Virus record (IMG/VR): IMGVR_UViG_3300046689_000627
Coordinates: 1-62,530 of that record
Length of the DNA stretch: 62,530 bases
Source: a virus
Strand: one strand, 5' to 3'
Shown here: positions 12,243-61,936 of the stretch, piece by piece
How positions within the stretch are numbered: position 1 is the first letter of the stretch
How the letters are laid out: each line of letters starts with the position of its first letter
Position numbers and translations under genes: made by a program
Notes under the pieces: model-generated
What the model was told of the DNA's origin: nothing
Database searches by the model: none
What the model saw: only the letters and a program-made list of their open reading frames with translations

Positions 12243-12314
12243 GGGTGCTGGTAAGAATCCCGTCAGGGGCCGCAAATGACGATGAGGGGGCGCTCTGCCG
12301 ATACGGTTGCCCCC

Positions 12315-13214
12315 GTGGAGAGCGTGCACCAACTGCGAGTGTCGATGCCGGACATCGAGCCGGAGGTGTGGCGGCGCATCCACGTCTACTCACACACCAC
12401 GCTGTCCGGGTTGCACGCCGTCATCCAGGTCGCCATGGGCTGGGACGACGCCCATCTGTACGAGTTCGGCGCCCGGTGGGAGACGTACGGGCACAACGGC
12501 CGTGAGCCGTCCGCGTACACCGTCGCCCAGATGCTGCCCGACGCCGGCTCCGGCGCGGGGTACGTGTACGACTTCGGTGACCACTGGGTCCACCACATCA
12601 CGGTGGAGAAGATCCACCGCCCCGCTGCGAACACCCACTATCCGCGGTGCAGTGCCGGCCGCCGGGCGTGCCCGCCCGAGGACTGCGGCGGCCCGCTCGG
12701 CTACGAACGCACCCTGCGAGCGATCCGGGCCCGCAAAGGACCCCGCTACCGCGAACTGCGCGAATGGGGACAGCACAGATACAACCCCGCGGCATTCGAC
12801 CGCGACGAGATCAACCGCGGCCTCGCCGACCCGGCATCCGTCGGCTACCCCGAACCCGCCCCGTGGCAGCGGGAGGTCCTCGACCTCTCCAGCCGCCGGT
12901 ACCCAGGCGCACCCGCCACGGGTGGTCAACGGGTTGACCACCCCCAGGCCGAACCGGAAAAGGACCCATGGGAGTCCGAGTCCGCCGTCGAAGCGGTCAA
13001 GGCGTTGACCACCGAGCCACCGCCCAGCATCACCGACGCGGTCGCCTCCGTCCTGGACGCACTCGGCAAGGTAGACGAGGCCCGCGCCCTGCTCGGCGTC
13101 GCACTGCGGGCCGAGCAGGCAAAGACCGGCGCCAGTGCCAACGAACTCGCCGAGCGTGTCCGCGGCGCGATGTCCCGCCCCCTGGTCCTCAAAGCCCTCC
13201 GGCATACCGACTGA
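12315..13214 (+). CDS. pRiA4b ORF-3-like domain protein
   Basis: A 299-residue protein from GTG 12315. An in-frame ATG at 12276 gives 312 residues, but homologous sequence begins near HQLRVSMPDIEPEVWRRI. The N-terminal ~170 residues match the pRiA4b ORF-3 / IS1096 TnpR-like pattern: VWRRIHVYSHTTLSGLH, GWDDAHLYEF, YVYDFGDHWVH, then CPPEDCGGPLGY. The family is found on plasmids and mobile elements; its biochemical role is uncertain. The C-terminal third is a linker plus helices. Its linker codons contain a 22-base palindrome. It lies in the same direction as the recombinase-like gene. Confidence 0.75.
   Translation: MESVHQLRVSMPDIEPEVWRRIHVYSHTTLSGLHAVIQVAMGWDDAHLYEFGARWETYGHNGREPSAYTVAQMLPDAGSGAGYVYDFGDHWVHHITVEKIHRPAANTHYPRCSAGRRACPPEDCGGPLGYERTLRAIRARKGPRYRELREWGQHRYNPAAFDRDEINRGLADPASVGYPEPAPWQREVLDLSSRRYPGAPATGGQRVDHPQAEPEKDPWESESAVEAVKALTTEPPPSITDAVASVLDALGKVDEARALLGVALRAEQAKTGASANELAERVRGAMSRPLVLKALRHTD
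12921..12942. repeat. 22-bp palindrome inside the pRiA4b-like gene
   Basis: GGTGGTCAAC, two bases, GTTGACCACC: a perfect palindrome in the linker-coding region. A second, imperfect copy (GGTCAA near 12995, GTTGACCACC at 13004-13013) lies ~75 bases on. It could be an operator or a by-product of the encoded Val-Asp repeats. Confidence 0.5.
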
Positions 13215-47331: not shown

Positions 47332-48960
47332 ATGACCCAGACGCGACGTCCTTCCAACCAGAACCGTCCACGCGTGAGCCGCCCCGGTTCCACCGGTCTC
47401 CGCTTCGGCATGTTCGCCATCTGCGTGACTCGCGACCCTGACACGGGCCTCAACAAGGGCAAGGCAAAGCCGCTGTACGACCTTCTGGTCACCTTTGCGG
47501 ACGTCAGCTCCCGCGACACCGAAAGGGGCTACCCGTACCGTGACGCCCTGGCCGCATGCCTGGACTGCTCGAAGCAGACCGTGGACCGGGCCGCGGACTA
47601 CCTGGAGAAGGAGATCGGGCTCGTGACGGTCCACCGCCGCAAGGTGGAAGGCAAGCCGGACGAGAACGATGCCAACCTCTACGAGATCCACGACGCGTGG
47701 CTGATCCACGGCGTCACGCCGCCCGCCGGGACCCCGCCGCAGCTCGTTGCCCGGTACGGGCACACGGTCCCCGGCCTGGATGTCGACGCGTGGATTGTCG
47801 AGCACGCTCCCGGCTTCGACATGTCCGCTTGGCGGACCGCCTACGACGAGAAGCTGCGGGCTCAGGAGGCCTTGCGTGAGGAGCAGCGACGCAAGGAACG
47901 GGCCCGCCGGAAGAAGTCAAAGAAGGGGGGTGGCGTCACGGGTGACGCCACCTCTGAGGATGCCGGAGAGAGGGGGGGTGGCGTCACCCATGACGCTACG
48001 GGTGGCGTCACGGGTGACGTGACCGGTGGCGTCATGGGTGACGCCCTATCTAAAGCCGGTAGTCCAGAACCTTCCTCTACAGACGACGATGCCCCTTCGG
48101 GGCGTAGCCCCGGTGAACCCCGTAGGGCCTCTGCAGGTAGTAAGGGCTCGAGCGATGGCGGCTTCGCCGCGCCCGCGAAAGACAGCCCCGCCCCCTCACC
48201 CGAAGAATCCATCGACCGCGGCCGTACCCGGACTCTTAAGCTCGCTCCCGAAGAGCGCAAGCAGATGAAGGCCATCCTCCAGCTGCTGCCGTCGGACCTG
48301 CAGTCCGCCGTGGGGAACGTCATTCCGGCGAACGTTGGCCGCAGCGTGGTGGAGTCCCTCGCCGTCGGCACGGACCGGGAGCGGACGCCGCAGCAGTTGG
48401 TGGCTCACCGACTGCTGCCGCGCTGGCAGCGTTACTGGGCGCCCAAGTTCTACGCAGGGGAACTCACTCCCGAGGTGAACGGCAAGAAGCGCAAGCCGTT
48501 CGGCCCGCTGCTCGAGATGCTCAGGGACACTGCCGAGTGCAGGAACCTGACGTGCGAGGACCGGCACGACTTCGTCCTGGACGGCGAGTGCCGGAACTGC
48601 GCAATGCGGAAGGGCGACCAGGCCGCCGACCGAGAGCGGGAGCGTCGCGCGGCGCAGGAAGACGCCGATCGGCAGGCCCGTCAGGGCCAGGCGCAGGCGG
48701 CAGCAGAGGCAGCCTCGGCTACGGCTCCGGTGCCGGCACAGCGGGACAGCATGGTGCTGCACGCCCCACGGGTCAGCCGTGAGTGCGCGGAGGACACCTG
48801 CGCCCTGCGGCTCCCCGATGGCTGGGACGATGAGCTGTGCAGGAAGTGCCGCACCCGCGTCAACCGTGCTGCTGAGGTTCACCGGCAGCAGCAGGAGACC
48901 ACGGCCTGCCGTGAGGCGCCGGTGGACGCGTTGGCCTCCGCTGGGCCGGCCCCGTTCTAG
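47332..48960 (+). CDS. Lambda O-like replication initiator
   Basis: A 542-residue protein (GGGGGTGG before ATG). Residues ~20-130 form a winged-helix domain like phage O-type initiators: GLRFGMFAICVTRDPDTGLN, PYRDALAACLDCSKQTVDRA, ADYLEKEIGLVTVHRR. A charged helix (EEQRRKERARRKKSKKG) leads into a low-complexity linker whose codons are four 24-bp iterons. The C-terminal half (~300-440) is helical, followed by CEDRHDFVLDGECRNC and CRKCRT zinc-type clusters. Iterons inside the initiator gene match the lambda O arrangement. It is the first gene of the rightward region. Confidence 0.75.
   Translation: MTQTRRPSNQNRPRVSRPGSTGLRFGMFAICVTRDPDTGLNKGKAKPLYDLLVTFADVSSRDTERGYPYRDALAACLDCSKQTVDRAADYLEKEIGLVTVHRRKVEGKPDENDANLYEIHDAWLIHGVTPPAGTPPQLVARYGHTVPGLDVDAWIVEHAPGFDMSAWRTAYDEKLRAQEALREEQRRKERARRKKSKKGGGVTGDATSEDAGERGGGVTHDATGGVTGDVTGGVMGDALSKAGSPEPSSTDDDAPSGRSPGEPRRASAGSKGSSDGGFAAPAKDSPAPSPEESIDRGRTRTLKLAPEERKQMKAILQLLPSDLQSAVGNVIPANVGRSVVESLAVGTDRERTPQQLVAHRLLPRWQRYWAPKFYAGELTPEVNGKKRKPFGPLLEMLRDTAECRNLTCEDRHDFVLDGECRNCAMRKGDQAADRERERRAAQEDADRQARQGQAQAAAEAASATAPVPAQRDSMVLHAPRVSRECAEDTCALRLPDGWDDELCRKCRTRVNRAAEVHRQQQETTACREAPVDALASAGPAPF
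47929..48048 (+). repeat. Four 24-bp iterons, candidate replication origin
   Basis: Units begin at 47929, 47977, 48001 and 48025, all on a strict 24-base register, with one position (47953-47976) occupied by unrelated sequence. Each starts GGTGGCGTCA. The first is fully palindromic: GGTGGCGTCAC, GG, GTGACGCCACC. The others diverge mainly in the right arm. They encode Gly-Val-Thr-Gly-Asp repeats in the initiator. Confidence 0.85.
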
Positions 48961-48973
48961 GTCACGGATTCAG

Positions 48974-48997
48974 GGTGGGGACACCAGCGTCCCCACC
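48974..48997 (+). terminator. Hairpin after the initiator gene
   Basis: GGTGGGGAC pairs perfectly with GTCCCCACC around ACCAGC, 13 bases after the stop. Confidence 0.75.
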
Positions 48998-49037: not shown

Positions 49038-49772
49038 ATGGGCAGGAAGAAGCCTGGTAAGCCGCGCCGACCGCGGAAGCGTGCACACACACTTCGGGAG
49101 CTCCAGCCGCCGGGTGAAGGCTACGAGGAATGGATCAGCGTCCGGCCTGGCATCGACCCTTCCCGGATTGACGATCCCCGGGTAGGCGCGGGAGCCCTCG
49201 AGATGATGCAGCGCCTGGCCGTCCTCGGTCCGCTGTACGACGGGCTCGTTCCCAAGGCTGCCCTGTACTTGGATGACATGATCGACCAGGGTAGGTTGCC
49301 GGTGTTCCGGGGCAAGGATGAGGGCAACCTGGTGCCGATCAAGGAGATCGCGGCCTTCTGTCAAGATCAGGGCAGCGTACGGGAGTCCATTCACAACCTG
49401 CACGCCATCGGAGCCCTCCTCGTCTTCATCGACGAAGAGCACAGCGCCCCCTACATCCGCATGGTGACCAAGCGTCCCGAGCCCGGTCAGCCGTGGCAAT
49501 TTAACGGCGATTCCGATGTTGCCGTCAGCACCGTCTGCGTCCCCAGCCACATTTGGGAAGAGCTCCCTTTGGATGTAGCTGCCGCGGTCGGGTTCATGCG
49601 GGCTTGCCGCTCCCAGCTGGAGAAACCGGACCCGGTCGTCTACGGGAGACACGCGGGCGTGAACGGCGCCGAGCACGCTCGAGAGCTTTTCGCCGCGGCT
49701 GAGGCCTCTGGGTACGTCGACTACAAGGGGTGCGACGCCTGCCCAGCCGGCCACCTCTGTACCCGGCCCTGA
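49038..49772 (+). CDS. Hypothetical protein downstream of the initiator
   Basis: A 244-residue protein from ATG 49038 (AAAAGGAG). The basic start MGRKKPGKPRRPRKRAHTLR is followed by a mixed fold: LYDGLVPKAALYLDDMIDQG, IKEIAAFCQDQGSVRESIHN (possible HTH), LLVFIDEEHSAPYIRMVTKR. It ends in a Cys pair (GCDACPAGHLC). The position after an O-like initiator would suit a helicase-loader or accessory replication protein, but no motif shows it. Confidence 0.6.
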   Translation: MGRKKPGKPRRPRKRAHTLRELQPPGEGYEEWISVRPGIDPSRIDDPRVGAGALEMMQRLAVLGPLYDGLVPKAALYLDDMIDQGRLPVFRGKDEGNLVPIKEIAAFCQDQGSVRESIHNLHAIGALLVFIDEEHSAPYIRMVTKRPEPGQPWQFNGDSDVAVSTVCVPSHIWEELPLDVAAAVGFMRACRSQLEKPDPVVYGRHAGVNGAEHARELFAAAEASGYVDYKGCDACPAGHLCTRP

Positions 49773-61108: not shown

Positions 61109-61936
61109 GTGAACCGCAACGCCCTGAGACAGCTCCTCAAAGATCGGCGCGCGCATATAGCCCCCGAGACCCACGGCCTGACCCGGCCCACAGGCCAGGG
61201 CCGCCGTGCCCCCGGCCTGTCCCAGTACCAGGTTGACCAGCTCACCAACCGGTCCTTCGGCACCTACCACCGCCTCGAGTCCGGCGCCTACGCCAACCCG
61301 CCCGTGGACCTTCTGCGCGACGTTGCCCGCCTGTTCGTGTTCAACGAGCAGGAATGGATCGGTCTGTGCCGGTACGCGCGCGGTGAAGAGCCGCCCGCCC
61401 CCCTGTACGACACGAGCGGCGACGCCGTCCCCTCTGCCTGGGAGGACGCGGTGGCCTGCTGCCGGCACATGGCCTACGTCACCGACGCCTCCTGGAATCT
61501 CCTCACCTGCAACCCGCAGTTCCGCCAGCTGTTCGAGTCCGGGCAGGCGCCCGCGAACACGATGCGGTGGATGCTGCTGGACGGGCGTGAGCAGCTCACC
61601 GACTGGGAGACGGCCTGGGCGCCGCTCGTCATGCCCCAGCTGAAGGCCGCTCTGGCGCTGCGCGCCGACGACCAGGTGCTGCTGCAGATCGAAGGGGAGA
61701 TACTCGCCGATCCTGTGGCACGGCCCCTGTACGAGGCGGGCGGGACGTCCATTCACCCGGACGGTGACGAGCGGCCGGTCCGGCATGCGAGTGAGGGGGC
61801 CGGCTGGGTGACGATGTGTGTGGCGCAGCCGCTTGCGTCTCCCGGCTCGAGGTTCATGATCCTCGTTTTTCGGCCGGGTCCTCGCCAGACCGTCAGCCGT
61901 CCGTCAATGCTACGGGCCCCCTTACCGGCCATATAG
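61109..61936 (+). CDS. XRE regulator with MmyB-type ligand domain
   Basis: A 275-residue protein from GTG 61109. The N-terminal HTH is MNRNALRQLLKDRRAHIAPE ... GLSQYQVDQLTNRSFGTYHR, typical of the MmyB-like XRE group, followed by LLRDVARLFVFNEQEWIGLC. The MmyB-like domain spans ~95-265 (WEDAVACCRHMAYVTDASWN, NTMRWMLLDGREQLTDW). In Streptomyces this family activates nearby biosynthetic genes and may bind fatty-acid-like ligands. It precedes a type III polyketide synthase in the same direction, so it may control it. Confidence 0.82.
   Translation: MNRNALRQLLKDRRAHIAPETHGLTRPTGQGRRAPGLSQYQVDQLTNRSFGTYHRLESGAYANPPVDLLRDVARLFVFNEQEWIGLCRYARGEEPPAPLYDTSGDAVPSAWEDAVACCRHMAYVTDASWNLLTCNPQFRQLFESGQAPANTMRWMLLDGREQLTDWETAWAPLVMPQLKAALALRADDQVLLQIEGEILADPVARPLYEAGGTSIHPDGDERPVRHASEGAGWVTMCVAQPLASPGSRFMILVFRPGPRQTVSRPSMLRAPLPAI

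Follow-up and report, generated by a model that had tools for sequence, protein, structure and literature searches.

Palindromic iterons within a phage initiator gene: a candidate replication origin of a type found on Streptomyces plasmids

Origins inside an initiator gene are already known, with lambda O, repC and the rep1-rep2 plasmids of Streptomyces as examples. The iterons of pSLA2 lie inside rep1, and Chang, Kim and Cohen, to go by their 1996 title (cited in PMC1876496), reportedly dealt with 'phage-like, centrally located' origins in Streptomyces. The rep1 and rep2 genes of the pSLA2/pSCL1 type are described in PMC13152386. Lambdoid phages have an origin built from iterons plus an AT-rich tract, placed midway in gene O, the product of which is the initiator that binds these iterons (PMC7466680). 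In repABC plasmids, oriV similarly lies within the initiator gene repC, beside an A+T-rich region (PMC3155836), and for PLE RepA, an initiator of the RepA_N type, covariation of the N-terminal DNA-binding domain with the origin is reported (PMC8263062).

The locus described here lies on a 62,530-bp stretch of phage DNA (the window) and resembles lambda O and ori-lambda in that palindromic iterons and an AT-rich tract occur in the middle of an initiator gene (PMC7466680). An earlier note on this DNA had called the origin lambda-like. The protein differs from lambda O in that Pfam revealed no PF04492 (Phage_rep_O) domain in window Rep and the match to the O-like phrog_391 was weak (E 0.02); no P-like loader was identified. 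Among documented systems of the same hosts, the closest precedent is pSLA2/pSCL1 rather than lambda. pSCL1 Rep1 is likewise a winged-helix (HTH_36) protein from the same host genus with palindromic repeats in mid-gene (one copy of GAGTCAAATCGACTCC and two of GAGTCAAAATGACTCA; GAGTCA..TGACTC repeats in the linker), and rep1 is followed by a DnaB-N/AAA helicase gene. Unlike window Rep, pSCL1 Rep1 has a half-site of GA-GT-CA with a 3-base spacer, and the two proteins lack BLAST similarity, Rep1 finding only itself by tblastn among the loci compared. No rep2-like helicase gene was recognised in the window, next to rep or elsewhere, whereas one adjoins a distant relative of window Rep on NBC_01650, a 13-kb linear plasmid with CG-core iterons that links the two systems; the DnaB-N/AAA helicase encoded there is 59% identical to that of pSCL1. 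The PLE system differs from the window in its intergenic iterons, its protein family and, as far as the available portion of PMC8263062 goes, in having no residue-to-base rule, while repABC plasmids differ in protein family, in their operon and in an origin described by a large A+T region instead of by such iterons (PMC3155836).

The gene and its DNA-binding domain are located as follows:

47332-48960, plus strand: rep, initiator gene (542 aa), assigned from the open reading frame, a phrog_270 match, homologues and the order of winged-helix elements in an AlphaFold model
47395-47700, plus strand: winged-helix DNA-binding domain, placed from alignments and the model, with recognition helix S-K-Q-T-V-D-R (x1 = K, x2 = Q)

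The encoded protein comprises the N-terminal winged-helix domain, a basic linker, the iteron-encoded stretch, a variable C-terminal part with CxxC motifs and a GPAPF tail. That the gene encodes a winged-helix initiator, as proposed in the earlier note, agrees with a modest match of residues 52-121 to the replication initiation protein family phrog_270 (E 6e-4), with the topology of the model and with matches of relatives of window Rep to HTH_36. Matches to DnaD-like families were weak, and no Pfam family, winged-helix domains included, scored above its gathering cut-off against window Rep itself. The AlphaFold model, built for the N-terminal piece (start 47377) from 24 aligned sequences and of moderate confidence (mean pLDDT 66, 27 residues below 50), contained helices at 30-44, 55-62 and 66-80 and two wing strands at 83-86 and 101-104; the third helix, the predicted recognition helix, begins with the residues after an invariant serine. 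PDB profile searches returned generic winged helices and DnaD. Foldseek matches to the model were weak, none below E 0.001, and some were to plasmid initiator chains, with TM scores of 0.4-0.5 to 4pt7 ('Structure of initiator'), 4pql ('N-Terminal domain of DNA binding protein') and 5kbj ('Structure of Rep-DNA complex'), which we take to be RepA_N proteins; with a model of pLDDT 66, these fold matches are only suggestive.

About 600 bp inside rep lie the repeats and the tract that adjoins them, none of which is assigned to a strand:

47929-47952: iteron 1, a perfect hyphenated palindrome, core GT/GT, GGTGGCGTCACGGGTGACGCCACC
47953-47976: spacer between iterons 1 and 2, the resulting 48-bp offset being kept in all close homologues
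47977-48000: iteron 2, core GT/GT, GGTGGCGTCACCCATGACGCTACG
48001-48024: iteron 3, degenerate in its right arm only, GGTGGCGTCACGGGTGACGTGACC
48025-48048: iteron 4, core GT/GT, degenerate in the outer part of its right arm, GGTGGCGTCATGGGTGACGCCCTA
48041-48090: AT-rich tract, candidate DNA-unwinding element, 48% AT versus 31% for the window (99th percentile)

The four units were found at the positions first noted for them (47929, 47977, 48001 and 48025), the palindrome of unit 1 was indeed perfect, and the array was also detected by TRF. Over 24 bases, identities to unit 1 were 24, 19, 22 and 20 for units 1 to 4, as compared with 8 of 24 for the slot at 47953-47976. This slot had been thought a decayed unit; since the offset between the first two units is 48 bp in the window and in 13 of 13 close homologues, it is a conserved spacer with no phage-specific decay. 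Single palindromes of comparable size and strength were as frequent in the window as in shuffles (18 versus 18.6), as would be expected of chance or low-complexity repetition in GC-rich coding DNA. Against that explanation, four copies are in register, and all four occurrences of the framework GTGGCNNCANNNNTGNNGCCAC with up to 2 mismatches, as well as all three of the strict core GGC-NN-CA-N4-TG-NN-GC with a symmetric dinucleotide, in the 62,530 bp fell within the array. The non-random feature is therefore the in-register repetition and not the individual palindromes, and chance, given conservation of the array in all close homologues, is refuted as an explanation and hardly credible. An Rfam search gave no match.

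The check proposed in the earlier note, a comparison of homologous initiators, bore out its interpretation: in about 30 homologues, mostly from Streptomyces plasmids, the palindrome GTGGC-NN-CA-N4-TG-NN-GCCAC is kept while its reading frame shifts. The encoded peptide was GGVTGDAT in most cases, VASPVTP in L024 and VAAPMRP in L010, and GPHPCG also occurred; the palindromes of L010 and L025 were read in all three frames, as were those of NBC_01650, with spacings of 24, 23 and 23. Over 44 loci, frame 1 accounted for 66 of the 103 strict sites, frame 0 for 25 and frame 2 for 3, the remaining 9 being non-coding; frames were mixed within 18 loci, and iteron spacings of 22-24 bp and about double that were common. 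In one homologue (L153) the array lies past the stop codon and in another (L163) across and past it. These comparisons bear on the possibility that a flexible Gly-Val-Thr-Gly-Asp linker peptide is the selected feature and the DNA repeat its by-product. The window units are all in one frame, as the earlier note had pointed out in observing that 24 is divisible by 3, but coding does not dictate this spacing, units 23 bp or other distances apart being common. The divergent peptides, the three frames of NBC_01650, the arrays beyond or across stop codons and the continued complementarity of both palindrome arms in homologues leave this explanation largely refuted and very unlikely. Since the same palindrome is read in other frames or is non-coding in homologues, the peptide repeat is the by-product and the DNA is what is conserved, and the repeat was present in all close homologues.

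The window tract noted above has counterparts elsewhere: the 50-bp stretch with the highest AT content in the whole gene adjoined the array (from -14 to +60 of its end) in 22 of 29 homologues, compared with about 6% expected per gene. We consider it very probable (roughly 0.86) that the array serves this phage replicon as its replication origin and that the product of the surrounding gene binds there. This interpretation, already put forward in the earlier note, draws on the plasmid homologues, the frame-independent palindrome, the AT maximum, the return of mainly winged-helix genes by pattern scans, the tracking of recognition helix and iteron core, and the helicase neighbour in NBC_01650; counted against it are the damaged right arms of units 3 and 4, the sub-threshold Pfam scores of the winged-helix domain with its modest phrog_270 match, and the result that none of the window ORFs scanned could be recognised as a replicative helicase or loader gene. 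For the gene next to rep (49038-49772), Pfam gave nothing and PHROG only a weak match of Cox-like type. In the proposed mechanism, the winged-helix initiator would use its recognition helix to bind the four palindromic iterons, with one protein on each half-site GGC-GT-CA; the array, once occupied, would open the adjoining AT-rich tract (48041-48090), and host helicase and primase would then be recruited, perhaps through the C-terminal region of Rep. Because the origin would lie within the gene, protein and binding site would travel together and might change specificity jointly.

Initiators often autoregulate through iterons, and the array might instead serve mainly as an operator at which Rep represses transcription of its own gene or, given the terminator-like score of the minus-strand hairpin of unit 1, as an antisense terminator. 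Both roles are improbable as the main function, as the array is 600 bp into the gene, next to the AT-rich maximum and with no promoter-like match nearby, and terminator-like matches equalled the shuffle mean; neither the promoter nor the terminator scan gave a signal above shuffles. Autoregulation could coexist with origin function, and the array may have an operator or partition role in addition.

The window is of phage origin, with a terminase that shares 68% identity with its counterpart in Streptomyces phage Kromp and genes for a tape-measure protein and a head protease. The earlier note had called rep a phage initiator gene, but the gene family was not found in 50,697 phage records (no usable match by tblastn with full-length or N-terminal window Rep). 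Its relatives sit on Streptomyces plasmids, both linear and circular, where eleven close ones and several distant ones were noted, and close homologues, on plasmids and in genomes, were 61-83% identical over the N-terminal region; matches were present in 13 of 394 Streptomyces genomes. Window Rep belongs to this plasmid Rep family by similarity of its winged-helix domain and linker and by its iteron type. Linear plasmids with relatives ranged up to 467 kb and circular replicons from 91 to 116 kb, the former including a 31.7-kb S. cellulosae plasmid with the homologue at its centre (15.9-17.4 kb) and the latter a 91,197-bp replicon of strain QHH-9511, equal in length to an IMG/VR virus record that carries a rep homologue. 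Thus, phage and Streptomyces plasmids have a replicon type in common, and a candidate origin with a testable mechanism is located in a phage even though no Pfam family reaches threshold for its initiator. Plasmid-type genes were also noted in the window, for a pRiA4b ORF-3-like protein (12276-13214, E 2.5e-52) and an MmyB-type regulator (61109-61936), and no integrase was recognised among the window ORFs scanned, so a phage-plasmid life of this virus is possible.

Searches by DNA pattern alone used a degenerate tandem pattern on IMG/VR and on the 394 Streptomyces genomes. Streptomyces matches with two equal symmetric cores were all in the Rep family of the window, bar one repetitive protein, and those from IMG/VR were mostly in winged-helix initiators of unrelated phages, HTH_36 proteins included. 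In one IMG/VR phage (L043), the linker that carries the iterons, here GGCAACANNNNTGTTGC, belongs to a true Phage_rep_O protein (PF04492, E 7e-22). Phage_rep_O linkers of L043, L049 and L051, all from IMG/VR, carry GGCAACACTACTGTTGC iterons in 24-bp register, with copy numbers that differ by contig. The generic pattern gave 5 chance-like matches in 397 mixed Actinomycetota genomes, none with two equal symmetric cores, and the strict tandem motif is for this reason uninformative in that set. Matches of the pattern scans set aside as chance or unrelated were those of L106 (a collagen-like repeat), L148 (a repeat protein), L128 (GGGTTAAGES repeats), L159 (no clear initiator), L147 (intergenic) and L151 (an AAA ATPase whose HTH is C-terminal, with a GT core and x2 = E).

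Core dinucleotides differed by group (GT, CG, AG, TT and GA), and comparison of proteins with their iterons suggests, with moderate confidence, that residue x2 of the recognition helix (S-x1-x2-[TS]-[VIL]-[DQ]-R) sets N1 in a grammar, GGC-N1N2-CA-N4-TG-NN-GCC, common to unrelated winged-helix initiators of phages and plasmids, such that Asp specifies C, Lys or Gln specifies G and Ser mostly A or T. This putative rule, a correlation, is the part that exceeds known cases; neither it nor the Rep family, the sharing between phages and plasmids or the iteron grammar was found in the open-access literature searched. The rule was fixed in writing before IMG/VR was scanned separately for paired palindromes with GT, CG or AG cores. 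The CG scan returned 20 stretches, 19 with a winged-helix gene, and x2 was Asp in 11 of 11 new initiators; in L053 (SRTQVQR), a CG-core locus seen previously, x2 is Thr. The GT scan gave Lys in two of three new initiator lineages (L146/L149 and L150), the prediction being missed by L152 (SRSTVQR, x2 = Ser), the helix and GT core of which are the same as those of pSCL1 Rep1, and the AG scan gave one Streptomyces-type match with Ser. A second irregular case, L042, has Ser with mixed GT/AT cores. Over the 44 loci, combinations of x2 and N1 were Asp/C 23, Lys/G 8, Gln/G 1, Ser/A 6, Ser/T 2, Ser/G 2 and Thr/C 2, and the association of Asp with C, counted by cluster, gave Fisher p values of 8e-6, 3e-4 and 0.007 at 60%, 50% and 40% identity. 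In a tree with x1 and x2 masked, in which many deep branches were poorly supported and the Ser class was almost one Streptomyces clade, L065 (Lys, GT) paired with L162 (Asp, CG) and L037 (Lys, GT) with L022 (Ser, TT/AT), implying repeated joint changes of x2 and core.

Low-copy plasmids carry centromere-like repeats, and a partition site for a ParB-like protein is accordingly a further reading of the array, less likely even than the linker-peptide explanation, as the sites vary in step with the recognition helix encoded by the surrounding gene and are confined to the rep gene. If the proposed rule is true, cognate pairs of origin and initiator and incompatibility groups could be predicted from sequence, so that origin specificity and plasmid/prophage incompatibility would be readable from it, origins in metagenomic phages and plasmids could be found by DNA pattern alone, and the choice of compatible Streptomyces vectors would be helped.

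Several minor features were also noted. The homologue of L037 (NZ_CP108855.1) seems split at the array into overlapping ORFs (87330-87866 and 86651-87337), apparently by a frameshift or as a two-gene arrangement, and its iterons fall outside the frame of the first ORF. An S. mobaraensis plasmid (L041, 2295-2491) has a gene of the Rep1-Rep2 type with five intragenic repeats of a different iteron type, centred on AATCGGGGAAAACCCGATT. In the window, a near-perfect palindrome, GTGGGGACACCAGCGTCCCCAC, at 48975-48996, 14 nt past the rep stop codon, resembles the GA-core iterons GTGGGGACACCAGTGTCGCCAC of a relative on an S. pseudovenezuelae plasmid (L032); it is not conserved downstream of homologues and is possibly a terminator hairpin. 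Window Rep ends in GPAPF (48946-48957), and most Reps of the family without an adjacent helicase gene end in -PF (GPAPF, EPPF, HAPF or NAPF), like the C-terminal tip of SSB, which may be a recruitment tail; two family members beside a rep2 helicase gene (NBC_01650 and NBC_00304) end in ILARGSGL.
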